DNA from: Candidatus Hydrogenedentota bacterium
GTDB lineage: Bacteria; Hydrogenedentota; Hydrogenedentia; Hydrogenedentales; CAITNO01
NCBI GenBank assembly: GCA_012730105.1
Contig: JAAYBJ010000330.1
Coordinates: 1 to 34,432 of the forward strand
DNA: 34,432 nt
Direction of reading: 5' to 3'
Both the position numbers and the translations under genes were made by a program. The notes below the pieces were generated by a model. That model was not told the DNA's origin. It worked only from the letters and a program-made list of their open reading frames with translations, and ran no database searches. This document shows, piece after piece, positions 1-12,360 of the stretch (its first letter is position 1; each line of letters opens with the position of its first letter).

Positions 1-930
1 AAATCCGATTCCCCCGCAGAAGCCGAACCCGGCGTGATCGCCGGCCTGGATATTGAGGCGGAAACCGGCCGCGGCGGCCTGCTGGAAGGCCTGGACCGCA
101 GCCAATGGCCCGAAAGCGGGGAAGTGGTCGTGGGCACCGTGCTCGCCACCCGTCTCAGCGTCCGGGAAGGCCAGTTGATCGCCGTCATCAGCCAGGATGC
201 CGACGGATTCCCGGTAAGCGAACTGTACACCATAAAAGCGATCGTCGATTCAAAGGTCGAACTGATCAAAACCCTCGGTGTGGTCATGCCGATCGAAGAG
301 GCGGGAACGCTGCTGGTCATGCCGGACCAGGCTCATGAGCTGGCGGTCTATGGCTATGATTTCCAGGAGGCGGACACGCTCAAGGCGTCCATCATGGGCA
401 TCCCCGCCCTCAAGGACGCCTCCATCAAGACCTGGCGCGAGGCCGTGCCCGAAATTGTCATGGTCATCAACGTCAAAAAATGGTTCGACCTGATTTTCCT
501 TTCCATTGTGTTTATCGCGGCGGCGGCGGGCATCGCCAATACGGCCATGATGTCCACCTTTGAACGCAAGCATGAATTCGGCATGCTGCTGGCCATGGGC
601 TCGCGCCCGCGGCGCATCATCAACATGGTGGTCATCGAATCGGTCATTCTCGGCCTGATCGGCATCGTGGTCGGTTCCATCATCGGCATCGTCATTGTCA
701 TGATCCTGTCAAGGACGGGGTTCAACTACGCCGCCCTGGGCGGCGGGGATGCCGACGCGGCCATATCCTACAAAGAAATATCCTTTTCCCTCGTCATCTA
801 TCCGCGACTCAAACTGAAGCAAGTCTTTTACGGCCTGATCGCGGTAACGCTGACCTCGGTGCTGGCCTCCTTGTGGCCGGCGCTGATCGCCGCGCGCCTT
901 GAACCGGTGGAGGCCATGCATCGCACATGA
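1..930 (+). CDS. FtsX/MacB-type ABC transporter permease, 5'-truncated by window edge
   Basis: This is the C-terminal part of an ABC permease of the LolC/E-MacB-FtsX class. The reading frame is open from base 1, so the GTG at 34 is probably internal and the true start lies outside the window. About 150 residues of soluble, presumably periplasmic, domain come first. Three hydrophobic segments follow, at roughly visible residues 161-183, 209-235 and 276-300. Between the first two sits the cytoplasmic coupling stretch TFERKHEFGMLLAMG, the usual ER..E.G.L.A.G pattern of FtsX domains. The end (LEPVEAMHRT) is also typical. The stop overlaps the next permease start (ATGA at 927-930), so the two are translationally coupled and probably form a heterodimer. 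The substrate cannot be read from the sequence; lipoprotein, lipid or peptide export are all possible. Confidence 0.9.
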   Translation, partial: KSDSPAEAEPGVIAGLDIEAETGRGGLLEGLDRSQWPESGEVVVGTVLATRLSVREGQLIAVISQDADGFPVSELYTIKAIVDSKVELIKTLGVVMPIEEAGTLLVMPDQAHELAVYGYDFQEADTLKASIMGIPALKDASIKTWREAVPEIVMVINVKKWFDLIFLSIVFIAAAAGIANTAMMSTFERKHEFGMLLAMGSRPRRIINMVVIESVILGLIGIVVGSIIGIVIVMILSRTGFNYAALGGGDADAAISYKEISFSLVIYPRLKLKQVFYGLIAVTLTSVLASLWPALIAARLEPVEAMHRT

Positions 931-2165
931 AATTCGGTACCGTACTTTTTAAATATGCCTCGCGCAGCCTGACCCGGCATACGCGCCGCACCGCCATTTC
1001 CATGACCGGCGTAGGCGTCGGCTGCGCCATGGCGCTGATCGCCCTGTCCTGGATGAACGGCGCCTTTGAAATGCAGGTGCGCGCCGTCGCGGAGAGCGGC
1101 TCCGGACACCTGATGATTGTCCACCGGGACTGGCCAGCCATGCGGGAGAACACGCTGCGCCTCACGGACTGGGAAGAAACGCTCGCGGCTATCAGGACGA
1201 CCCCCGGCGTGCGGGCCTGCACCGCCAGGGCGCGGGCGAACGGGCTGCTGGCCTTCGGCAACCGTTCCTCCGGGGTGCAGGTCATGGCCTTGCTCCCTGA
1301 ACACGAAAGCGAAGTGAACCGCGTAGTGAGCCGCAGCCGTATCGAAGGCCGCTATCTGAACGAGGAAGATCCCGGCGCCGTGGTCATCGGCAAGGGCCTC
1401 GCCAAGCGCCTGAACGTGGAGCTCGATGACGACCTGTACGTCACCCTGCCGGGTACGGATGACATCCACAGCGCCATGTTGCGCATCGTGGGCGTCCTGG
1501 ACACGGGCAGCCAGGACCTGGACCTGACCATCTGCCACATGACGCTTGCCAATCTTGAATCCATAACGGGCATTCCCGGCGCCGGTGAAATCACGATGCT
1601 TCTGAAGGACCACAACGATATCAACACCGTCAAGGAGCGCCTGGAAACAAAAATGCCCGGTAATAACCTGGTCATTACGTGGAAGACGGTGCTGCCCGCC
1701 CTGGCCTCCGGAATGCAGGGGGACAAGGCGCTCATGCGCCTGCTTACCGCCATTGTCATCACGGTAGTGGCCCTCGGCATCATGAGCGCCCAGTTAACGG
1801 CAGTCCTCGAACGGCGCGCTGAATTCGCTATTCTCTCCGCGCTGGGCATGAAAAGCGGCCAGATTACGCGCATCATCCTCGTGGAATCGCTGATTATCGG
1901 CTTGGGCGGGGCGCTCATCGCCCTGTTAGTAGGCGGATCAGCCGCCTGGTATCTCGCATCAACCGGCATTAATCTTCTTTACTTCAACGCGGACGCCCTC
2001 GGACCCAGCAACATCCTGCTCGACCCCCGCATATACGGCTCCTTCGGGCCCTGGCTGATTGGATACGCCGCCGCCATTTCCATCACGGCCACCGTGGCGG
2101 CCTCCCTGTACCCCGCATGGAAGGCGGCGCAGATTGACCCCGCAGACGCATTAAGGACACAATAA
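927..2165 (+). CDS. FtsX/MacB-type ABC transporter permease (full length)
   Basis: The 412-residue protein has the LolC/E topology. One N-terminal membrane segment (about residues 24-46) is followed by a large periplasmic domain of about 220 residues, then three membrane segments near 270-295, 319-345 and 378-403. The coupling motif LERRAEFAILSALG lies after the second membrane segment, and the C-terminus ends IDPADALRTQ as in MacB/LolC relatives. It starts at ATG 927 inside the stop of the upstream permease, and the ATPase follows after 3 bases. Two different permeases plus one ATPase match the LolC-LolE-LolD plan. MacB-like export is the alternative, but no fused ATPase and no membrane-fusion protein are visible. 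Family assignment is firm; substrate is unknown. Confidence 0.92.
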   Translation: MKFGTVLFKYASRSLTRHTRRTAISMTGVGVGCAMALIALSWMNGAFEMQVRAVAESGSGHLMIVHRDWPAMRENTLRLTDWEETLAAIRTTPGVRACTARARANGLLAFGNRSSGVQVMALLPEHESEVNRVVSRSRIEGRYLNEEDPGAVVIGKGLAKRLNVELDDDLYVTLPGTDDIHSAMLRIVGVLDTGSQDLDLTICHMTLANLESITGIPGAGEITMLLKDHNDINTVKERLETKMPGNNLVITWKTVLPALASGMQGDKALMRLLTAIVITVVALGIMSAQLTAVLERRAEFAILSALGMKSGQITRIILVESLIIGLGGALIALLVGGSAAWYLASTGINLLYFNADALGPSNILLDPRIYGSFGPWLIGYAAAISITATVAASLYPAWKAAQIDPADALRTQ

Positions 2166-2168
2166 GAC

Positions 2169-2894
2169 ATGGCTGTAACCATTACCGATGAAACCCTGGT
2201 CCACGCGAAAGACGTCACCAAGGTGTACCAAACCGGCGAAGTAGAGACCTATGCCCTGCGCGGCATCGACATGGAAGTCAAGGCGGGCGATTTTATGGCC
2301 ATTGTCGGGCCGTCCGGCAGCGGCAAAACCACACTGTTGAACCTTATCGGCGCGTTGGACGCCGTCACCGGGGGTTCCCTGGAGGTGCTGGGTAAAGACA
2401 TTTCAAAAATGAGTCGGCGCCAGCGCGCCGACCTGCGGCTTCACGCGCTCGGATTCGTGTTTCAGGCGTACAACCTGTTCCCCGTGCTCACCGCCCAGGA
2501 AAATGTCGAGTTCGTGCTGGAACTGCAAGGCGTCAACAACAACCGCAGCGGACGCGCCCGCGAAGTGCTCGACCGGCTCGGCCTGCTGGAATATGCGAAC
2601 CGGCGTCCCACCCAGATGTCGGGCGGGCAGCAGCAGCGCGTGGCCGTGGCGCGGGCAGTGGCCTCGCAGCCGCGACTGGTGCTGGCTGACGAACCCACGG
2701 CCAACCTGGACGGTGAAAACGCCCGCATTCTGCTGGACATGATGCGTGACCTCAATGAAAACCAGGGCACGACCTTTATTTTCTCCACCCACGACCCGCG
2801 CGTAGTGGCCTATGCGCGGCGCGTGGTAACGCTGGTGGACGGGAAAGTGGCCAAGGATGTGGTCAAGGAAAACGATACCGATGGCGGGGTGTGA
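2169..2894 (+). CDS. ABC transporter ATP-binding protein, LolD/MacB class
   Basis: The 241-residue nucleotide-binding subunit powers the two upstream permeases from the cytoplasmic side. Walker A is GPSGSGKTT (47-55), the Q-loop glutamine is at about 99 (GFVFQAYNLFP), the ABC signature MSGGQQQRVAVARA starts at 150, Walker B plus catalytic Glu is RLVLADEPTANLD (from 169), and the H-loop is STHDP (His208). The QAYNLFPVLTAQENVE stretch is characteristic of the LolD/MacB/FtsE group. All catalytic residues are present, so the protein should be active. It starts 3 bases after the permease stop, and its own 3' end overlaps the next gene by 14 bases, which ties the outer-membrane protein to this operon. 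Confidence 0.95.
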   Translation: MAVTITDETLVHAKDVTKVYQTGEVETYALRGIDMEVKAGDFMAIVGPSGSGKTTLLNLIGALDAVTGGSLEVLGKDISKMSRRQRADLRLHALGFVFQAYNLFPVLTAQENVEFVLELQGVNNNRSGRAREVLDRLGLLEYANRRPTQMSGGQQQRVAVARAVASQPRLVLADEPTANLDGENARILLDMMRDLNENQGTTFIFSTHDPRVVAYARRVVTLVDGKVAKDVVKENDTDGGV

Positions 2895-4188
2895 TCCGCG
2901 CCGGCAAGGACGTGGCCGCTTCGCGCTGACGGCATTTCTTGCCGGCTGCGTGCTTCTCGGCACGGCCGGCTCCGCTTTCGGCCTCGAACTTTGGTACGAC
3001 GAGGAAACGGACCGCGGGGCCGAACTGCGCACCACACTCAAACTCACCGGCTATGCCAGCGCCAATCCTTCTGATCCCTGGATATACCCCAACGCGACCA
3101 GCGTAACCGGTCTGGTCCGAACGCGGTTCGGGGTGAACCTCACCCTGAGCGACCGGGTTTCGGCGGAACTCGCTTATGAACACCACGCCCAGCGCGCCTC
3201 CCACGGCGGGGGGATCAGCGTTGCCGGCAATATCCTCACCTCCCTGTCCGAATCCCCCTGGCGGGCGGCGCCGCTGGATTGGCAGATCGTGCGTGACGGC
3301 GACAATTTCAACTACCGCCACGAGATTGACCGCGCGCTGGTAACCGTGAAACCGGACTGGGGCCTGATCACCGTCGGCCGCCAGGCCATCGGTTTCGGAC
3401 GCGGCGTGCTGTTTAGCGCCGTGGATGTGTTCGCCCCCTTCTCTCCTCTTGAGGTGGACCGGGAATGGCGCCGGGGCGTGGACGCCCTGCGGATCGAATA
3501 CCGCACCTCGCCGCTCACTTCCCTGGAACTGACCGCCGTGTTCGGCGAACGCTGGGAGGATTCGGCGCTACTGGGGCGTTTCCGGGGTTATGTGGGCGAA
3601 CTGGACGGGGAAATCATTGTAGGCAAGCGCGGTGAAGACGCCATGTTCGCAGGGGTATTGTCCGCGGCCCTGGGCGGCGCGGCTGTTCACAGCGAACTTG
3701 CCCTGTTCCACACACCCGAAGAACAGCCCGGCGGCGGCTTGTTCGGCAAAAAGGACCTTGCGGCAAAACTGGTCCTCGGCGCCTCTTACACCTTCAACGT
3801 GGGAAACGGCCTGACCGTCCTCGGCGAATACCATTATTCCGGTTTTGGTCTCAAGCACGCGGAGGATGTCGTGGAGCAAATCCTCAACCAGGACTTCATA
3901 AAGCGGTACCTGCGCGGGGACAGCCAGATCCTGGGCCAGCATGGCCTGGCCTTGCAGGCCTCCTATCCGTTCAACGAAACGCTCCTGGGCGCCTTGGTTT
4001 TTCTCGGAAGCCTGACCGATGCCTCCGGCATAGCGATACCCTCGCTGGTCTGGTCGGTCAACGACGCCACCACCGTCACCCTGAGTGCCTTTCTCCCCTG
4101 GGGACCCTCCCCCGAAAACGGAAACCTGCGTAGCGAATACGGCTCCTCCCCCTTCAGCCTTTTCGCCCAGTTGAGCCTGTATTTCTGA
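2881..4188 (+). CDS. Outer-membrane beta-barrel protein linked to the ABC operon
   Basis: I start this protein at ATG 2881, which overlaps the ATPase stop and gives 435 residues. A GTG at 2857 in the same frame would add 8 residues. The N-terminus has basic residues, then a hydrophobic stretch (FALTAFLAGCVLLG) ending at an AxG-type cleavage site before LELWYDEE, so it is exported. The mature part alternates polar and hydrophobic residues in strand-like blocks. It carries a GRQAIGFGRG / DVFAPFSPLEVDREWRRGVD segment, which I associate with uncharacterised outer-membrane barrels next to transporters. It ends in SLFAQLSLYF, a terminal aromatic strand typical of BAM substrates. I infer that it is the outer-membrane partner of the ABC system; a specific family cannot be named from memory with certainty. 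Confidence 0.8.
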   Translation: MAGCDPRRQGRGRFALTAFLAGCVLLGTAGSAFGLELWYDEETDRGAELRTTLKLTGYASANPSDPWIYPNATSVTGLVRTRFGVNLTLSDRVSAELAYEHHAQRASHGGGISVAGNILTSLSESPWRAAPLDWQIVRDGDNFNYRHEIDRALVTVKPDWGLITVGRQAIGFGRGVLFSAVDVFAPFSPLEVDREWRRGVDALRIEYRTSPLTSLELTAVFGERWEDSALLGRFRGYVGELDGEIIVGKRGEDAMFAGVLSAALGGAAVHSELALFHTPEEQPGGGLFGKKDLAAKLVLGASYTFNVGNGLTVLGEYHYSGFGLKHAEDVVEQILNQDFIKRYLRGDSQILGQHGLALQASYPFNETLLGALVFLGSLTDASGIAIPSLVWSVNDATTVTLSAFLPWGPSPENGNLRSEYGSSPFSLFAQLSLYF

Positions 4189-4261
4189 GAGCCGGTTTCG
4201 GCAAGCCCCCGCACTTCGTCACGAAAAGTATCGGCACATACCCGGCATTTTCATTGGAACT

Positions 4262-4483
4262 TTATACTTCAAAAAGCGTGCGTGGCAAACCTGACTGGCG
4301 GATAATGGAACGCAATGTGCCCATGCGCAGTTCATTGTGGTCGGGCACGGGCACCGTTGTCGTACCAATCGTATCTTGTTTCTGCATAACAACATGGCTC
4401 CCCCTACGACGGACTTCAAGAAAACCGTTTTCTGCAAGTATACGGCAAGCCTCCGCGCCGGATATCCTTTTGAGCTTAGGCAA
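4262..4483 (-). CDS. hicA: HicA-type mRNA interferase toxin
   Basis: This small toxin (73 residues) has the double-stranded-RNA-binding-like HicA fold and would cleave mRNA when free of its antitoxin. I chose TTG at 4483 as start: it yields MPKLKRISGAEACRIL, the standard HicA N-terminus, whereas the longer frame from 4558 adds 25 residues that no HicA has and runs over hicB. The catalytic-His context RRRGSHVVMQ and the tail TLRSIIRQSGL are both typical. The start lies 8 bases inside the end of hicB (stop at 4476-4478), with GGAA upstream as a possible ribosome site, so translation is coupled to the antitoxin. The key residues look intact. Confidence 0.9.
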   Translation of the reverse strand: MPKLKRISGAEACRILAENGFLEVRRRGSHVVMQKQDTIGTTTVPVPDHNELRMGTLRSIIRQSGLPRTLFEV

Positions 4484-4700
4484 TGCTGCATTCCATCGGG
4501 ACGATATAACATTCGCCCTCCGTACGACGCTGTATCTCGTCCTCATCTGCACATTCAAAAAAAAGCTCTACGGCTTCCTTCAGCATTGTGCGAGCCTCTT
4601 CTACCGTATCGCCCTGACTGGCAATATCCAGATCGGGGCAAAGGGCGACATAGCCATTCCCCTCTCGCTCAATGACCGCTGTAAAATGTATGGTACGCAT
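4476..4700 (-). CDS. hicB: HicB-type antitoxin (short form)
   Basis: The 74-residue antitoxin partners HicA. ATG 4700 is preceded by AAGGA at good spacing and gives MRTIHFTAVIEREGNGYVAL, then CPDLDIASQGDTVEEAR, the hallmark HicB partial RNase-H-like fold, and LKEAVELFFE. A longer frame reaching 4805 has no homology-like features and overlaps the promoter. The protein ends soon after the fold, with no C-terminal helix-turn-helix or ribbon-helix-helix, so if the operon is autoregulated the DNA contact must come another way. The antitoxin gene precedes the toxin gene, as in many hicBA loci. Confidence 0.9.
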   Translation of the reverse strand: MRTIHFTAVIEREGNGYVALCPDLDIASQGDTVEEARTMLKEAVELFFECADEDEIQRRTEGECYIVPMECSIA

Positions 4701-4742
4701 GAAACATTTCCTTGCTTTTATTGCAAACTCGCACATTCTATT

Positions 4743-4750
4743 AACCGGTT
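4743..4750. promoter_or_regulatory. Palindrome AACCGGTT at the expected hicBA transcription start
   Basis: A perfect 8-base palindrome lies just downstream of the hicBA -10 box, where an autoregulatory complex could block transcription. It is short and could be chance. Confidence 0.25.
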
Positions 4751-4752
4751 CA

Positions 4753-4781
4753 ATTGTATCTTTTTTTTCTGGAAGCAGCAA
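4753..4781 (-). promoter_or_regulatory. Promoter for hicBA
   Basis: On the minus strand TTGCTG (4781-4776) and TACAAT (4758-4753) are separated by exactly 17 bases, including a run of eight A. This lies about 50 bases upstream of the hicB start. The same hexamer pair with 17-base spacing recurs before phoH. Confidence 0.6.
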
Positions 4782-4835
4782 ATTATTGCTGTCCTGCAAT
4801 GGCAATCACCACAACAATGGGGGGGTATAACCATG

Positions 4836-4864
4836 TTGACAAGCATCTGTATTTGATTTATATT
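4836..4864 (+). promoter_or_regulatory. Near-consensus sigma70 promoter for the membrane protein at 4952
   Basis: TTGACA (4836-4841), a 17-base spacer, then TATATT (4859-4864): a perfect -35 and a one-mismatch -10. It faces the gene that begins at 4952, giving a leader of about 80 bases. Confidence 0.75.
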
Positions 4865-4951
4865 TATAAACAGGAGTTAGAAATACATTGCTTACCTTAC
4901 TAAAAAATATACAATTGGAAAGGAATTTCTCGCAACAGGGAAGGGATACCC

Positions 4952-5983
4952 ATGGACGCGACAGAAGAGGCACTCCAGCCCCAGTCTTTCAAAGCCGCAC
5001 GGATCCGCCTTATTGCGGGCGGGATACTGCAGCTCATTGTAGGGATTGATTGCGCTTATCAATTTGCCTATGCGACCTACGGGCTGTATTACTTTACCTA
5101 CTTCCCGGCGACAGTCGAACACTCTTTCCTTTACTCGCCGTTCTTTAAATTCTGCCAATTCGCATTCTTAACCCCCTGGTTTCTTATTATGGCCCTGGGT
5201 TCCCTTTCCATGCGGCGCTGGGCCAGATCTCTGACGCTTATCGCCGCCGGGGCGATGCTTATTCTGGGTATCTCCATCCTCATAAGCACGGGATTTGTCC
5301 GGCCCTTCTTCTTCCGGTTATTACCGCATCCTGAAAGGATGCGATTTGATATATCTTACCCGTTCTTAAGGGGCACTATAATCTTCGTCGCCCAAAAGTA
5401 TATTGCATTTCCCGTTATCCTGATACTGCTTTACAGCGACAAGGGACTAAAACAAATTTGTGAACATTTTACCCCCCGGTCCTCCTGGACCGACCGACGC
5501 CCGCTGCCCGTGCTGGCCGCCAGTTTCCTGCTTTGCTTTCAGTTGTATCCCTTATCGCGCATCTTTAGCTCACAACAAGAACTCATATCCGTCGGGTGGC
5601 TCGAGCGTCAGGCCGTCCCGCAAGCCACCGTCCTTGTCATCGGGCTGACTTATATCATTGCCCGAGGACTCTATCAGCTTCGCACCTGGGCATGGTGGAG
5701 CGCAATCATCACCACCCCCCTGTTCTTCATTTCTTTCACCACTCGGTATATTCAAGGCCATTACGCAGAAATTATTTATCACGCGCGTTATTACGAAAAC
5801 ACTCCCGGGAAAATGGAAGCCCTCAATGTTATTTCGGACGTGTGGCTTCCCGCCCTGCTGGTAATGCTGTGCCTGATGGCCTTCCTGGTCTACATCAAAC
5901 GCTATTTCAAAGATAACGCAGCGTCTCCGATTGCCGACCACAATCCCAGAACCAAAGAGGATACCATTCCACCCGCACCTTGA
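4952..5983 (+). CDS. Multi-pass membrane protein, paralogue A of a tandem pair (unknown function)
   Basis: I do not recognise the family. The 343-residue protein has about eight hydrophobic segments (near 18-46, 69-85, 92-115, 140-161, 185-203, 222-240, 243-263, 297-316) and no signal peptide, so it is an inner-membrane protein. Its neighbour at 6189 is a clear paralogue. Shared blocks are RLIAGGILQ, GSLSMRRWAR.LTLIAA, WTD.RPL.VLAAS..LCFQ, QLRTWAWW in A against RLRTWAWW in B, and KRYF near the end. Conserved Arg-Trp-Ala and Trp-Ala-Trp-Trp motifs at segment starts suggest an internal half-repeat. ATG 4952 follows GGGAAGGG at 8 bases and a strong promoter at 4836. Base composition is AT-richer than the flanking operons, consistent with acquired DNA. 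Confidence 0.85.
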   Translation: MDATEEALQPQSFKAARIRLIAGGILQLIVGIDCAYQFAYATYGLYYFTYFPATVEHSFLYSPFFKFCQFAFLTPWFLIMALGSLSMRRWARSLTLIAAGAMLILGISILISTGFVRPFFFRLLPHPERMRFDISYPFLRGTIIFVAQKYIAFPVILILLYSDKGLKQICEHFTPRSSWTDRRPLPVLAASFLLCFQLYPLSRIFSSQQELISVGWLERQAVPQATVLVIGLTYIIARGLYQLRTWAWWSAIITTPLFFISFTTRYIQGHYAEIIYHARYYENTPGKMEALNVISDVWLPALLVMLCLMAFLVYIKRYFKDNAASPIADHNPRTKEDTIPPAP

Positions 5984-6093
5984 AAACGTATCGCTGAAAT
6001 CTCGAACGCCACCTGTCAGATCCCCCCTGATAGTATCTCTTTCAAATAGGGAGAGACGCCGGTACCATGGGATATATTGGCTTTTTAGATCTG

Positions 6094-6122
6094 TTGACAA
6101 GAACTAACGTTTATAGTATAGT
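6094..6122 (+). promoter_or_regulatory. Near-consensus sigma70 promoter for the membrane protein at 6189
   Basis: TTGACA (6094-6099), 17 bases, TATAGT (6117-6122). It has the same architecture as the promoter at 4836, so each paralogue has its own strong promoter. Confidence 0.75.
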
Positions 6123-6188
6123 CATAAAGAGTGAAATTGCAATTGTGTAGTAATGAACAAGATATAAAAAGAATCGGGAGTTTAATCC

Positions 6189-7208
6189 ATGTCAGATCCG
6201 GAAGAAACACTTCAATCATTGCCTTTCAAAGACCGGCGCGGGCGCCTTATTGCGGGGGGCATTCTGCAAATCATCGCGGGAGTCTGTTGCGCTTTCGGCT
6301 TGGCTTTCACCGTCTTGGGCCTAGTTATTTTTAGAGACCTTGCTGATGAAACAAATAAAACTCTTCTGAAAATCCCAATGCTAACCGGGCTCTGCATGTA
6401 TGCGACCGAAACGTTTTGCTTTCTCATCATGGGATTGGGCTCCCTTTCCATGCGGCGCTGGGCCCGGGCCCTGACACTTATTGCCGCCTGGGCGTGGCTT
6501 GTTATGGGAATCGCCACTTGCATTCAAATGCTGTTTTTTATGCCGAAAATGTTTCAGGCAATGACACATGCCGAAAGTATGCCCCTCGATATGGGCTACA
6601 TTTCAGCCATCATCGGCATGACCTTTATCGCTTTTACTTATATTGTTTTCCCCGGGATTCTGATACTTCTTTACAGTGGTAATGATGTAAAGCGAACTTG
6701 CGAGCATTACAACCCGGAACTCTCCTGGACCGATAAACGCCCACTATCCGTTCTTGCTGCCAGTCTCGTGCTTTGCTTTCAGCCGTTTACCTTCTTTTTC
6801 ACGTTTCTTTATCTGCACAATTCCTCAAGATTTGGCTCCTGGTTTCAAGGTCCTTTATCCCTGCTGATATTTACCCCTGGCATCCTGGTATTTCTCGTAC
6901 TGGCTTTGGGATTCTATCGGCTTCGCACGTGGGCTTGGTGGGGGGCAATCATTTTCATCCCCTTGGTGTTCGGTTTCAATGCCTTCACCTATACAAGAGA
7001 AAATCCTTCTGAAGTACTTAAAAACATGGGATTTGACGAAAAACTATTCGGGGATATGGACATGGAAGCGCTCATGGGCAATCCAGGCGCATGGATACCC
7101 TCCGTCTTAATGATGATATGCTTCCTGGGATTCCTGTTGTATACGAAGCGATACTTTGAAAAGCCGGAAACACCGCCGACTGACACTGTTAATAAGATTG
7201 AGGCTTAG
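6189..7208 (+). CDS. Multi-pass membrane protein, paralogue B of a tandem pair (unknown function)
   Basis: This 339-residue paralogue of the protein at 4952 has the same order of hydrophobic segments and the same motifs: RLIAGGILQIIAG near residue 19, GSLSMRRWARALTLIAAW near 84, SWTDKRPLSVLAASLVLCFQ in the middle, RLRTWAWWGAI and a C-terminal YTKRYFEKPE. Divergence is greatest in the loops, notably one before the last segment that is rich in Glu, Asp and Met (ENPSEVLKNMGFDEKLFGD). The start ATG 6189 has GGGAG 9 bases upstream. The tandem arrangement points to a local duplication followed by divergence. Function is unknown; no catalytic motif or transporter signature is visible. Confidence 0.85.
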   Translation: MSDPEETLQSLPFKDRRGRLIAGGILQIIAGVCCAFGLAFTVLGLVIFRDLADETNKTLLKIPMLTGLCMYATETFCFLIMGLGSLSMRRWARALTLIAAWAWLVMGIATCIQMLFFMPKMFQAMTHAESMPLDMGYISAIIGMTFIAFTYIVFPGILILLYSGNDVKRTCEHYNPELSWTDKRPLSVLAASLVLCFQPFTFFFTFLYLHNSSRFGSWFQGPLSLLIFTPGILVFLVLALGFYRLRTWAWWGAIIFIPLVFGFNAFTYTRENPSEVLKNMGFDEKLFGDMDMEALMGNPGAWIPSVLMMICFLGFLLYTKRYFEKPETPPTDTVNKIEA

Positions 7209-7255
7209 AGGGCGTTATCGGGTATCAGTGTAAGCTAAAACACGAGTATCATTCC

Positions 7256-7291
7256 GATAGTGATAGTGATAGCGATACCGATAGCGATTGT
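7256..7291. repeat. Six degenerate GATAGY hexamers in tandem
   Basis: Consecutive hexamers read GATAGT, GATAGT, GATAGC, GATACC, GATAGC, GATTGT. The array lies in the 139-base gap between the convergent genes ending at 7208 and 7348 and is in no convincing gene. Confidence 0.8.
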
Positions 7292-7347
7292 GAGAGTCGG
7301 TTGCAGGCGGATACGTCGGTCGGCGGAGGGAGAGCCGCGTGCGGCTT

Positions 7348-8022
7348 TTACCGCATTCCGACGGCCTTGGGAATGGAGGGCGGCGGGGAATTTGAGGAAT
7401 TGCCGTCACCGTTGCGGGGACGGAACCGGACTTCGCTGCGAAGTTCGGGGTGTCGCGGGGTAATGGTGTCGAAAAAGTTGCGAATAAAAGCCAGGTCTTT
7501 TTCCAAATCGCCGGTACAATAATACAAGGGACCGAACCCGCCGGCCTTGCGTTTGAAATCGAGATACCCGAGCGCAATGGGCACTCCTGCGGCCAGGGCT
7601 ATGTGATAGAAGCCCGCCTTCCAGTATTCCACTTTCGCGCGGGTGCCTTCGGGTGTCAATGCGAGTACCAGTTCATCCCGTTCCTTGAATACCTGTACCG
7701 CCTGCTCAACCAGGCCCTGGCAGGTGCCCCGGTATACGGGGATGCCGCCGGTTCGCCTGAAAATATGTTTCGCCACGGGCCAGCTGAAAATCTCGGACTT
7801 CCCCAACCAGGCCCCTTTCATCCGGTAATACCAGGAAATCGCCAGGACCAGGGGATAGTCCCAGTTGGAGGTATGGGGCGCCACGATGACCACATACTTG
7901 GGCACCTTGGGCGGCTCGCTTTCGACTTTCCATCCCAAAACTTTAAGGAAGACCACTCCGATAATATGAAGGAGCAGATTTACGCGGCCCGTCCGCTGGA
8001 ATTCTACATTGTCTGTTGACAT
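7348..8022 (-). CDS. Lysophospholipid acyltransferase family protein (PlsC-like)
   Basis: The 224-residue protein belongs to the glycerophospholipid acyltransferase superfamily, which moves acyl chains onto lipids at the inner membrane. Seen are the catalytic HX4D motif (His50 and Asp55 in VAPHTSNWDYP), a GIPVYRG substrate-binding block near 93-99 and PEGTRAK (124-130). The single hydrophobic stretch near 15-30 could anchor it. The APHTSNWD form is typical of a subgroup separate from classical PlsC, so the acceptor may not be lysophosphatidate. I prefer ATG 8022 because AAGGA lies 10 bases upstream; ATG 8043 in the same frame would add 7 residues. The C-terminal tail (RNGDGNSSNSPPPS) is low-complexity. 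No lipid-synthesis neighbour supports a pathway. Confidence 0.88.
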   Translation of the reverse strand: MSTDNVEFQRTGRVNLLLHIIGVVFLKVLGWKVESEPPKVPKYVVIVAPHTSNWDYPLVLAISWYYRMKGAWLGKSEIFSWPVAKHIFRRTGGIPVYRGTCQGLVEQAVQVFKERDELVLALTPEGTRAKVEYWKAGFYHIALAAGVPIALGYLDFKRKAGGFGPLYYCTGDLEKDLAFIRNFFDTITPRHPELRSEVRFRPRNGDGNSSNSPPPSIPKAVGMR

Positions 8023-8077
8023 TCCGCTGGATTCCTTATTCATCCGCTTACGCGGCGCCTGGTGCTGGCGTCTTTAT

Positions 8078-8107
8078 ATAATAACGCAGACGACCCCCGA
8101 AAGTAAA
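8078..8107 (-). promoter_or_regulatory. Promoter for the acyltransferase gene
   Basis: On the minus strand TTTACT (8107-8102) is followed after 18 bases by TATTAT (8083-8078), about 55 bases upstream of the preferred start. Spacing is one longer than ideal. Confidence 0.45.
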
Positions 8108-8363
8108 GAAATGTTTGGCTTCAAACACTAATAACACAAACAATATTCGAAGCGGGATTATTGCCCGGCCAGCGCCCCCCATATCCGGTCCGCCCGGCAC
8201 GGAGTTTGTTTCAAACCCGCAAAAAAGTCCACAATAGGCGCAGGAGCGCATGATTTCCGCGAATACGGTTTTCCCGATCTCGGCTTTCCGGCGCTTCCAT
8301 AGCCGCCTGAACGTGCAGGCGTCACCCGCACAAAGCATGTAAAACCATCTTGGAGAACCGTCT
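8108..8363. other. Intergenic stretch upstream of the Tat oxidoreductase
   Basis: The divergent gap between the acyltransferase and the oxidoreductase spans about 340 bases. Apart from the acyltransferase promoter I see only the GGAG ribosome site at about 8351 for the next gene. The open frame on the minus strand here (8048-8500) runs into the oxidoreductase and has no protein-like features. Confidence 0.5.
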
Positions 8364-9683
8364 ATGAAACGCACTTCTTCACCCCTTTCCCGGCGTTCGT
8401 TTTTGAAAGGCGCGGCCGCCGCGGCCGTTTTCCCCGCCATCATCCCGTCAACCGCCCTGGGGCGTGACGGCGCGGTCGCCCCCAGCGAACGCATTGTCAT
8501 GGCCTCGATTGGCGTGGGCGGCCAGGGTTCCTATGACACGCGCGCGCTGATGAGCATGCCGGACGTGCAATACGTGGCGGTCTGCGACGTGGACCGTACA
8601 CACTGCGCGACGGCAAAGACCATGATTGAGCAGCACTATGCCTCCGCACAGCCCGACGGCGCCTACTCCGGCATCCGGGAATACTATGATTTCCGGGAAG
8701 TGCTGGCCCGCGAAGATATCGACGCGGTCATGATCGCCACACCGGACCACTGGCACGCCGTCATAAGCGTGGCCGCGGCCAAGGCGGGCAAGGATATTTA
8801 TTGTGAGAAGCCGCTGGCAAATTCCATTCCCGAAGGCCGCGCCGTGGTGGACGCGGTGCGCCGCTACGGCCGTGTGTTCCAGACCGGCAGCCATGAACGT
8901 TCCCGGGACAACGCGCGCTACGCCTGCGAGCTGGTGCGCAACGGGCGCATCGGCAAACTGCACACCATCCGCGTGCAGATGCCCGTGGACCGCGTGGAGG
9001 AATACGAGCAGCCGCCTTCCCCCCTCATGCCGATTCCGGAGGGTTTTGACTACAATTTCTGGCTCGGACCCGCCCGGGAGGCGCCCTACACTGAAAAACG
9101 CTGCCATTTCTTTTTCCGCTACATCCTGGATTACAGCGGCGGCGAGATGACGGACCGGGGCGCCCATATCATTGACCTGGGCCAGCTGGGCAACGGCACG
9201 GATGATACGTTGCCGATCACCGTGGAAGGCAAGGGCACCTTTGCCAAAGAGGGGCTGTTCAACACGGCCTACATCTATGACTTCGCCTTCGAGTATGCCA
9301 ACGGCGTCCGGTTGATCGGCGACAACACCGCCCCGCGGGGCATCCGCTTTGAAGGCGATGAAGGCTGGATCTTTATCCACGTGCACGGCGGCAACCTGGA
9401 AGCGGAGCCCCAATCCCTGCTTCGGGAGGTCATCGGGCCGAACGAACTGCACCTGGGCAGAAGCCGCGGCCATCACTACGACTTTATTGAATGCGTCAAG
9501 TCGCGCGGCGAACCCAAGGCACCGGTGGAGGTGGGCTACCACAGCGCCTCCATGTGCCACATGGCCAATATTGCCATGCTGCTGGGCAAGAAACTGCATT
9601 GGGATCCAATCAACGAGCGCTTTGACGATGAAGCGGCCAACCGGTTGATGCAGCCCTCCATGCGCGCCCCCTGGGTCATTTAG
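8364..9683 (+). CDS. Tat-exported Gfo/Idh/MocA family oxidoreductase
   Basis: The 439-residue protein is a predicted NAD(P)-dependent oxidoreductase acting on sugars or sugar-like compounds outside the cytoplasm. The N-terminus carries a perfect twin-arginine motif, SRRSFLK (residues 9-15), then an Ala-rich hydrophobic region ending near STALG. The Rossmann nucleotide loop is ASIGVGGQGS (48-56), and the catalytic-lysine motif is YCEKPLANS (Lys149 in EKP). The C-terminal half has the usual alpha/beta substrate domain, with YSGGEMTDRGAHIIDL and several His residues. Such proteins are exported with cofactor already bound. ATG 8364 has GGAGAA upstream. It lies 52 bases before the HEAT-repeat gene and may be co-transcribed with it. 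The substrate is not deducible. Confidence 0.92.
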   Translation: MKRTSSPLSRRSFLKGAAAAAVFPAIIPSTALGRDGAVAPSERIVMASIGVGGQGSYDTRALMSMPDVQYVAVCDVDRTHCATAKTMIEQHYASAQPDGAYSGIREYYDFREVLAREDIDAVMIATPDHWHAVISVAAAKAGKDIYCEKPLANSIPEGRAVVDAVRRYGRVFQTGSHERSRDNARYACELVRNGRIGKLHTIRVQMPVDRVEEYEQPPSPLMPIPEGFDYNFWLGPAREAPYTEKRCHFFFRYILDYSGGEMTDRGAHIIDLGQLGNGTDDTLPITVEGKGTFAKEGLFNTAYIYDFAFEYANGVRLIGDNTAPRGIRFEGDEGWIFIHVHGGNLEAEPQSLLREVIGPNELHLGRSRGHHYDFIECVKSRGEPKAPVEVGYHSASMCHMANIAMLLGKKLHWDPINERFDDEAANRLMQPSMRAPWVI

Positions 9684-9735
9684 TTTTTCAACACCGATAC
9701 TGGCAAACAGTACTTGAACGATAAGGAACACGCTC

Positions 9736-12360
9736 ATGAATCCCTATAAATTTCGTACAGTCAGGCTGCTGTTTCCCGCCCTGCTGCTCCTTGCCGCCCT
9801 GGGCGCGGGAACCGGCGCGGCCGCTTTGGATGCGGCGCTACAGGAGCATTTCACCGCCATGGCCTCCTACGGGCAAGGCATGTCGGAAGTGCCGTTACGA
9901 ACCATAGAAGAAGCGGTTCGTGCGGCGAACGCGGACCCGGCGGTCTCGCCGTCATCCAGCGAACTGGAACAGGCGCTCATTGCCCTGCTTGAAGGGGACA
10001 GCACCACCGATGCGAAACGGTTCGCGTGCCGCATGCTTGGTGAAATCGGCAACCCCGCCGGCGCGGCGGCCCTGGCAGCTCAACTGGCCGTCCCGGAACT
10101 TTTCAGCACGGCCCTCGCCGCCCTGGAACACATGGGCACACCCGAAGCCGCCCAGGTAATCATGGGAACACTGGAAAGCGCCGATGCCGAAAAACGTGTT
10201 CCCCTGCTGACCGCCCTGGGCCGTCAGGGACGCCCGGAATCCGCCGCGGCGGTTCTTCCCTTTCTGAAAGATCCGGACCCCGGTATCGGCTACACCGCCG
10301 CGCAGGCCCTGGCGGATATTGAAAGTATGGAATCCTGCCGGGCACTGTTTGACGCCTTCAACGACCCCGCATTTGCCGACAAGCAACCCCTTCTGGACGG
10401 GTGCCTGTCCTGCGCGGAGACTTTCCTGGATTCCGATGCCAAGGACACTGTTTTTGCCTCTCTGGAAACGATGACGGGCTCATCATTCCCGGTTCATGTC
10501 CGCCTGGCATCCGCCCGACTGCTGATGAAGGCACAGCCGGAACGCGCGCAGAATCTGCTGGCTGTCTTCTTGCGGGATGAAGATCCCGCCCTTTCATCAG
10601 ACGCGCTCATACTCGCGCGCGCCCTGAACACCCCGCCGGTCACGGAAGCCCTGGTCTCCCTGCTCGACACGGTGGAGGGCAAACGCCGGATCGCCCTGAT
10701 CGAAGCGCTCGGCGCGCGGGGGGACGCCTCCGCCCTGCCGGCGGTGCGGGCTCTTGCCGATGATGAATCCCCCGAGCTGCGCCAGGCCGCCCTGAAAGCG
10801 ACCGGGCTGCTGGGCAACGCCTCCCTGGCCGAATTTCTGCTTGACCGAGCGGTAAACGGTTCCAGCGAGGAACAGCGCATCGCCCGTGAGGGCCTGGCAA
10901 CCATGCCCGACCCGGAACTGAACGCACGCCTGACGGCAATTGCCGAGGGCGCAACCGAAGAACCCCTGCGTCTCCGCGCGATTGCACTATTAGCGGAACG
11001 GCGCGCCGTGGAAAGCGTGCAGCAGTTGTTCGCCCTCGCCGCCCAAGCATCCCCCGTGATCAGGGCCGAAGCGGTAAGCGCCCTGCGCACCCTCGCGCCA
11101 GGAGAGCGATTAAAGGACATGCTGCAATTCGCAGTTCTGCCGGGCGTGGGCGATGTCGCCGCAGTGTTGCCCCAGGCCCTCGCCGACATTGCGCAACGCC
11201 AACCGGTTCCCGGCGCGGACCCTGCGCTTCCCGTGGTCGAACTGTTACGGCAGGTGGCCGACGGCACGACCGGCGGGGAACTGAGCCCGGAACAGCGCCC
11301 GGCCTCACGTTGCCTGCTGCTCGAGACGCTGGCGCTCGTCGGCAGCGATACCGCCTTCGCGGAGATGCGGGCCAACCTGACGGATGAAAACGCGGAGGTG
11401 CGCAAAAGCGCTATCAGCGGGCTGTCCCGTTTCCAGCGCACCGACGCCTTAAACGAACTGAAGGCGCGCGTGAGCGAGGAGCAGGACGCCGCCATTCGCG
11501 TCCTGGCCTATTCCGCCTATCTTGCCTCCCTGCGCAACGCGCAAGCGCTGCCACGCAAGGAAGTAGACGCCCATCTCACCTATGCCGCCGAACAAGCCCA
11601 GACCACCGCTTCGCGCCGTGAATTCCTGGCGGCAGCCACGCAGTTGCCGTCGCTTGCCTGCCTGCGCCTGATCGAACAGCAGTTGGAAAGCGCGGACGTG
11701 GCCGCCGAAGCCCTGCGCGCCGCGCTGACTGTGAGCAAGGCGCTTGCTGGCGCCTGGCCGGAAGCGGCGAGGACACGCCTGGAAGCGATTGCCGCGGCGC
11801 CAGACCAGACCCCCGAGACTATTCACGAGGCAAAGGAAGCGCTCAACTTCATGCGGAAGCATAAAGATTATCTCCTGGCTTGGGAAATGGCCGGCCCTTA
11901 TTTTGAAACCCAGACCACGGCGACCGTTCTTTTTGACCACAGTTTCCCCCCGGAAACAGACCTGGAAAACGCCAACTGGCGCGTGTTGCCGGTGCTGATG
12001 GATGCCGACCCGGCGTTCAAACTGGAATTCGATCGGGTCCTCGGCGGTGAAGAGCGTGTTGTTTTTGTGCGCACGTTCATAACTGTTCCGGCTGAAACGG
12101 ACGCCGTGCTCGAACTGGGCACTAACGACGGTTGCAAAATTTGGTGGAACGGCAACCCGGTTCATGCCCTCAATGTCGGGCGACCGCTCACACCGGGAGA
12201 GGACAAACTGCCGGTTCGGTTGGCTTCCGGTGTGAACACGCTGATGATGGCGGTCTTTCAGCAGGGAGGCGCCTGGTGCGCGACAGCGCGCCTGACCGAC
12301 CCGCAGGGACAACCACTGCAGAATGTCACCGTGTCCTCCCAACTGCCGGAAACCGAATAA
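9736..12360 (+). CDS. Secreted HEAT-repeat protein with C-terminal beta-sandwich domain
   Basis: The 874-residue protein starts with a signal peptide (FPALLLLAALGAGTGAAA, cleavage before about residue 31). Then come many helical HEAT/PBS-lyase-like repeats from about 60 to 600, recognisable by recurring LLDTVEGKRRIALIEALGARGD and AALKATGLLGN-type units in which small helices pair with Asp-Pro turns. The last 160 residues (from about 715, WEMAGPYFET) look like a beta-sandwich: VLELGTNDGCKIWWNGNPVH and LPVRLASGVNTLMMAVFQQGG resemble galactose-binding or PA14-like folds. ATG 9736 follows AAGGA by 8 bases. The protein is probably periplasmic or surface-exposed and acts through protein or glycan binding; no catalytic motif is visible. 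The pairing with an exported Gfo/Idh protein hints at carbohydrate use. Confidence 0.85.
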   Translation: MNPYKFRTVRLLFPALLLLAALGAGTGAAALDAALQEHFTAMASYGQGMSEVPLRTIEEAVRAANADPAVSPSSSELEQALIALLEGDSTTDAKRFACRMLGEIGNPAGAAALAAQLAVPELFSTALAALEHMGTPEAAQVIMGTLESADAEKRVPLLTALGRQGRPESAAAVLPFLKDPDPGIGYTAAQALADIESMESCRALFDAFNDPAFADKQPLLDGCLSCAETFLDSDAKDTVFASLETMTGSSFPVHVRLASARLLMKAQPERAQNLLAVFLRDEDPALSSDALILARALNTPPVTEALVSLLDTVEGKRRIALIEALGARGDASALPAVRALADDESPELRQAALKATGLLGNASLAEFLLDRAVNGSSEEQRIAREGLATMPDPELNARLTAIAEGATEEPLRLRAIALLAERRAVESVQQLFALAAQASPVIRAEAVSALRTLAPGERLKDMLQFAVLPGVGDVAAVLPQALADIAQRQPVPGADPALPVVELLRQVADGTTGGELSPEQRPASRCLLLETLALVGSDTAFAEMRANLTDENAEVRKSAISGLSRFQRTDALNELKARVSEEQDAAIRVLAYSAYLASLRNAQALPRKEVDAHLTYAAEQAQTTASRREFLAAATQLPSLACLRLIEQQLESADVAAEALRAALTVSKALAGAWPEAARTRLEAIAAAPDQTPETIHEAKEALNFMRKHKDYLLAWEMAGPYFETQTTATVLFDHSFPPETDLENANWRVLPVLMDADPAFKLEFDRVLGGEERVVFVRTFITVPAETDAVLELGTNDGCKIWWNGNPVHALNVGRPLTPGEDKLPVRLASGVNTLMMAVFQQGGAWCATARLTDPQGQPLQNVTVSSQLPETE

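Follow-up and report, generated by a model that had tools for sequence, protein, structure and literature searches.

The window (the whole stretch of DNA analyzed here, 34,432 nucleotides) carries two neighboring, intact open reading frames on its forward strand, paralogue 1 (P0001; 4952..5983, 343 residues) and paralogue 2 (P0002; 6189..7208, 339 residues). The two proteins align nearly end to end at 42% identity (E 9e-79), and eight membrane helices are predicted for paralogue 2, in agreement with the first-pass annotation, which had described them as duplicated membrane proteins. In the family tree they form a single clade with support of 100/100, within which paralogue 1 is the more divergent copy, with a terminal branch of 1.38 versus 0.30 for paralogue 2. 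A search of the source genome found no third family copy. By tblastn, the two proteins match seven relatives at E values from 3e-49 to 3e-7; their profile scores are circular, as both are rows of the alignment behind the profile (alignment A1). Both copies match the family over its full length and bear the invariant R90, A92, W180, T181, D182, and P185 (alignment A2). The two genes are diverged copies in tandem and belong, as divergent members, to a family of membrane proteins of about 330 residues that has no name. Just after paralogue 2, at 7256–7297, a GATAGN unit is repeated imperfectly seven times in tandem.

Directly upstream of the pair, on the opposite strand, are the two genes of a HicAB locus. 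The HicA toxin gene (4262..4558, reverse strand) matches PF07927 at E 4.2e-17, with 62.4 bits against a cut-off of 27. The HicB-like antitoxin gene (4476..4805, reverse strand) falls short of its Pfam cut-off (22.1 bits vs. 27) and is recognized by the PHROG HicB-like family at 1.6e-9. The toxin–antitoxin pair proposed earlier is thus present, HicA by Pfam and its HicB-like partner by PHROG. The source genome holds eleven HicA matches, ten of them above the Pfam cut-off, and the hicBA genes here form a separate, ordinary module with no sign of a functional tie to the membrane proteins.

Two near-consensus promoters

Each paralogue is preceded by a sigma70-type promoter that agrees with consensus at 11 of 12 positions: TTGACA-17-TATATT at 4836..4864 (forward strand), whose −10 element ends 87 nt before the ATG, and TTGACA-17-TATAGT at 6094..6122 (forward strand), 66 nt before the ATG. 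These are the only 11-of-12 sites of this type found in the window, and the pattern TTGACAN{15,19}TATANT has exact matches in the window at these two positions only. One hundred dinucleotide shuffles of the window gave a mean of 0.03 matches, with none containing two, so the earlier call of a near-consensus promoter for each paralogue stands. Between the two genes, at 6013..6033 on the forward strand, is a weak terminator-like hairpin (MFE −7.6 kcal/mol, z −2.0).

The same pattern with spacers of 16–18 occurs 37 times in the 5.63-Mb source genome versus 4 times for the reversed control, and about 0.0008 such sites are expected per 250-bp upstream stretch. Thirty of the 37 sites were read, two of the seven others being the window's own. 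About half of those read precede, by eye, ordinary genes, among them ribosomal protein S12, glycyl-tRNA synthetase, RNase Y, porin-like, pilin-like, and lgt-like genes, and for a few no obvious gene follows. Because so many of these sites stand before ordinary genes, TTGACA-16/18-TATANT is, as judged from sequence, the organism's ordinary strong promoter class, and the 37 versus 4 count suggests that a promoter this close to the sigma70 consensus could serve as a marker in this uncultured lineage. On contigs C56, C179, and C182 of genome G000 (L009, L020, and L021), three near-identical strong promoters precede ORFs that are lgt-like by eye; in L020 and L021 the promoter lies close to the contig end.

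Compared in register, the two promoters agree at 11 of 12 hexamer positions, at 6 of 17 spacer positions (Fisher p 0.003), and at 12 of the 50 positions upstream; the hexamer agreement is in part a selection effect, since both sites were chosen for their match to consensus, and their rarity in the genome and the window is the safer evidence. Upstream regions as similar as those of the pair arose in 9 of 2000 mononucleotide shuffles, or in 33 of 2000 with the hexamers masked, a signal weakened by the two window leaders themselves, which are unremarkable against dinucleotide shuffles (about 6% of 300 score as high). The simplest, if unproven, account has one promoter copied together with its gene and both copies retained. 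The promoter is not a family trait. Upstream DNA of 81 relatives yielded one 12-of-12 site, none at 11 and two at 10, so that a single relative of the 81 has a site of at least 11 of 12; sites of 9 of 12 were found in 18 of the 81, versus 7.4 in mononucleotide shuffles. A 5′ leader conserved across distant relatives was considered and dropped, as the alignments were gappy and none was seen to be common to the whole set; a few pairs of leaders did score well, among them paralogue 2 and L092, which none of 300 dinucleotide shuffles matched.

A widespread family, mostly in single copy

A scan of genome contigs with P0002 as a single sequence returned no match; the alignment A1 profile then gave 108 family places among GTDB species. 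The 80 of these 108 that were listed fall in Planctomycetota, Verrucomicrobiota, Kiritimatiellota, Lentisphaerota, Acidobacteriota, Elusimicrobiota, Omnitrophota, and Hydrogenedentota, among others. Closer to the source organism the distribution is sparse: the family is present in 8 of 68 genomes of the phylum set, the source genome included, and is absent from all 16 further same-family genomes searched, three of them congeners. Within one Phycisphaerae family, matches occur in 16 of 89 genomes and span most of the length in nine of these.

Among 88 sources (85 of them distinct), the window alone showed a second copy within the DNA fetched, which was short for some sources. Of 50 genomes taken from the 80 listed loci, 48 gave one match and two gave a second on a separate contig, one of these half-length; these genomes were picked as carriers of the gene, so that the count informs copy number and not prevalence. 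One assembly outside this count has two unlinked copies on different contigs (L080 and L115). The family is thus widespread and mostly present once per genome. A TAG interrupts one copy (L046, 2257–3078, genome G024), which may be a degraded gene.

Family libraries do not name these proteins. Across 80 family members, Pfam gave no convincing family (best E 0.0067 among 25 of the 50 matching families). NCBIfam had no model for the full-length members tested (P0001, P0002, and L057, with L130 matched through its GYF_2 region only), and all Pfam and NCBIfam matches of the window pair lie far below cut-offs. MerT (PF02411) was rejected: P0002 reaches 13.2 bits against a cut-off of 32.9, in its N-terminal half, and P0001 has no match. 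PHROG has no family for the pair, PADLOC has none for the pair or hicBA, and a literature search covering listings and the starts of abstracts found no description of the family there.

No constant partner gene accompanies the family across 85 distinct loci, among the matches listed (L063, L069, and L093, which share contigs with L040, L041, and L044, were dropped from this count). The most recurrent neighbors in the same list belong to common superfamilies and keep no constant place; by eye, Gfo/Idh-like oxidoreductases occur at at least 12 loci and ABC ATPases at at least nine, the window's among them. At three Acidobacteriota loci (L101, L104, and L118), the family gene lies, by eye, between genes for ssb and pterin-4a-carbinolamine dehydratase, the dehydratase at L118 being seen through its antisense trace. 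The dehydratase gene, which comes after the family gene, was put down to local synteny.

A predicted eight-helix fold with a conserved linker

The 80-row family alignment comprises 78 of the 80 references that passed the filter (L115 and L120 were left out) and the two window proteins; L084, L096, L134, and L046 failed the filter and were excluded. Invariant throughout are G24, G31, G84, R90, A92, G107, W180, T181, D182, P185, V188, and L189. AlphaFold2 run on this alignment predicts eight long helices joined by short linker helices in a 4+4 layout, with a pLDDT of 87.7 and a pTM of 0.86. In the predicted model, the invariant charged and polar residues R90, T181, and D182 are found at a helix start or in a linker, not deep within a helix. 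Also conserved are P213, F215, G216, and G221 of the loop between TM5 and TM6 (74–77 of 78 relatives), several of which are lost from the window copies; the model places these four on the side opposite the proposed cytoplasmic face. Cys184 in the linker is found in 75 of 78 relatives and replaced by Arg in both window copies, as in 3 of 78. Being common rather than invariant, it is not treated as defining the family. P0001 lacks several of the conserved residues. The conserved residues of the family can now be pointed out as testable.

Orientation in the membrane can be approached through charge. Averaged over the 80 rows, positive charge exceeds negative in the RRWAR loop, the TM4–5 linker, the TM6–7 loop, and the C-terminus; the bias is modest, with the P0002 linker neutral and both P0002 termini carrying one acid more than base. 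Mapped onto the model, this pattern weakly favors a cytoplasmic location for the RRWAR loop and the WTD linker.

The structure and remote-homology check thus gave a confident eight-helix model with no clear match among solved structures. A Foldseek search with the model returned no match at E 0.001, and a PDB sequence search returned a single weak one at E 0.42. The top VIA matches, both to the N-terminal half, were to the Kei1 subunit of IPC synthase (9vj4_B and 9ivc_B, the name of the former inferred from the latter), with Z of 8.0 and 7.8 and rmsd of 5.5 and 5.4 over 152 and 155 residues, respectively; these Z values lie inside the range reached by unrelated helical bundles, and the identity is 10%. 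With neither library nor structure supplying a name, the earlier description of both proteins as being of unknown function remains apt.

A shared four-helix module

Shorter proteins from Phycisphaerae match the N-terminal half of the family only, at E values from 1e-10 to 1e-18, and an hhalign comparison of this half-length set with the family gave a probability of 99 for the N-terminal half and 1.1 for the C-terminal half, a result not independent of the E values, as the set was picked by profile match. By sequence comparison, the N-terminal half is homologous to this stand-alone four-helix module. Comparison of the family's own two halves in an internal duplication test gave a probability of only 20.6. 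A GYF_2 domain (PF14237) is present in five of the eight half-length proteins and in one full-length member, L130 (E 1.9e-12); Pfam finds none in P0001 or P0002. Stand-alone four-helix proteins with GYF_2 at the N-terminus, such as L170–L174, are homologous to the N-terminal half of the pair across the full extent of that half; the window proteins differ from them in lacking GYF_2 and in possessing a second four-helix half and the WTD linker. For a family without a convincing Pfam match, an alignment is now available together with a confident structural model, and the family can be tied to four-helix proteins joined to GYF_2.

The source genome encodes another small membrane protein, L177, that does carry GYF_2; neither profile matched its membrane part (best E 0.05 and 0.1), which by eye we take to be RDD-like. 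One published paper (eLife 2020, PMC7159879) mentions that in some planctomycete proteins a pair of GYF domains is fused to a trypsin or to a TM-rich region; these may or may not be of the same kind as the GYF_2 four-helix proteins. In L176 (370–1495), two paralogous stand-alone versions of the N-terminal four-helix module lie in tandem, so adjacent duplication also occurs elsewhere in the wider superfamily.

History of the locus

The pair had been described as an acquired system in an AT-richer stretch. The composition is as described, with GC of 0.47–0.51 in 1-kb windows from 4001 to 7500 against 0.57 for the whole window, though not unique, as a second AT-rich stretch at 24.5–27.5 kb has GC of 0.51–0.52. 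Third-position GC of the pair is 0.60 and 0.54; of seven other nearby genes (hicBA apart), six have 0.71–0.79 and the acyltransferase 0.67.

In one form, the acquisition idea is that the 3.16-kb hicBA and pair block is a recently acquired cargo island, whose strong promoters ensured expression after transfer. The congener G002 has both flanking genes, porin-like and acyltransferase, in unchanged order and at 74–75% identity; the roughly 0.75 kb that separates them there occupies the position of the block and does not align to it. This comparison, together with the low third-position GC of the pair and its absence from all 16 same-family genomes, congeners included, speaks for gain. It is, however, the sole clean comparison: in G001 the porin-like gene lies beside other genes on a different contig, and in G003 the contig ends at that gene. 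Moreover, the window contains no tRNA or Rfam family, no long flanking repeat was found within 4180–7360, no integrase was seen by eye among the ORFs of 1–12000, and no plasmid, phage, or viral (IMG/VR) relatives of the pair were found. A topology that groups the pair with five copies from Hydrogenedentota was not rejected, at p-AU 0.331, in a test from which the Hydrogenedentota copies L045 and L046 were left out. Gain of the block is thus the simpler story, not demonstrated, and the claim of acquisition survives as plausible, with vertical grouping also compatible with the tree; the full cargo-island scenario we rate at somewhat under an even chance. The DNA found at the position of the block in G002 (L158; contig C532, between 14498 and 15254) contains repeat-like stretches by eye.

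The notion of a membrane "system" fares worse. Only common superfamilies recur nearby, in no fixed place; phage, plasmid, and IMG/VR relatives and PADLOC matches are absent; and both the promoter class (37 sites) and HicA (11 matches) are ordinary in the source genome, so a system is not supported. The finding is a modest local oddity and not a new mobile system, and the stakes of the finding itself are modest.

Possible functions of the pair

The best single explanation, held tentatively and by analogy, is that the pair represents a duplicated, constitutively expressed inner-membrane protein that acts on its own as a platform or adaptor and engages a partner in the cytoplasm. The two genes would form separate constitutive transcription units, as inferred from their promoters. 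In the model, the KDR, RRWAR, C-x8-WTD-x-(C/R)-P, YRLxxxAWW, and KRYF motifs gather on one side, probably the cytoplasm, and this conserved face would contact the partner. The second copy may increase dosage, or the two proteins may assemble into a mixed complex; paralogue 1 presumably evolves faster and has lost several conserved residues. Since the window proteins lack GYF_2, the adaptor idea is borrowed from their relatives. Two points lower confidence in the explanation slightly: part of the conservation falls on the other side of the membrane, and the hexamer agreement is partly a selection effect.

Its main rival is transport: the pair could be a small-solute transporter or channel in which the conserved residues gate or couple transport. 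The predicted eight helices in a 4+4 layout, the spread of conserved positions over both membrane faces, and the MerT resemblance of the P0002 N-terminal half (E 0.095, far below cut-off) are all compatible with it. Nonetheless, the Pfam matches noted above include no convincing transporter, R90, T181, and D182 are not placed deep in helices as modeled, and no substrate-linked neighbor recurs; transport is unlikely, if worth keeping in view. More improbable still is a new functional class, in which an eight-helix scaffold would have arisen by extension of the GYF_2-tethered four-helix module and been duplicated into a mixed inner-membrane complex of constitutive, separately promoted subunits.

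Very little favors the view that the pair is a defense or toxin module tied to hicBA, for example an effector that damages membranes in the manner of a holin. The pair does adjoin hicBA, and a holin model gives weak hits to 6 of 80 family members (best E 0.0067), but the pair has no PADLOC or PHROG match, no defense gene was seen by eye among the recurring neighbors listed, and with 11 HicA matches in the genome adjacency is unremarkable. Least credible of all is that the two promoters are meaningless chance matches: the locally AT-rich DNA, their rarity among relatives, and the mutual agreement partly built in by site selection would fit, but the 0.03 matches expected in the window and the genomic excess over the control weigh heavily against it. 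Promoter 1 and the region behind hicB are bracketed by a 16-nt inverted repeat (4751–4766 and 4902–4917, 94% complementary), which could be a regulator site or chance.
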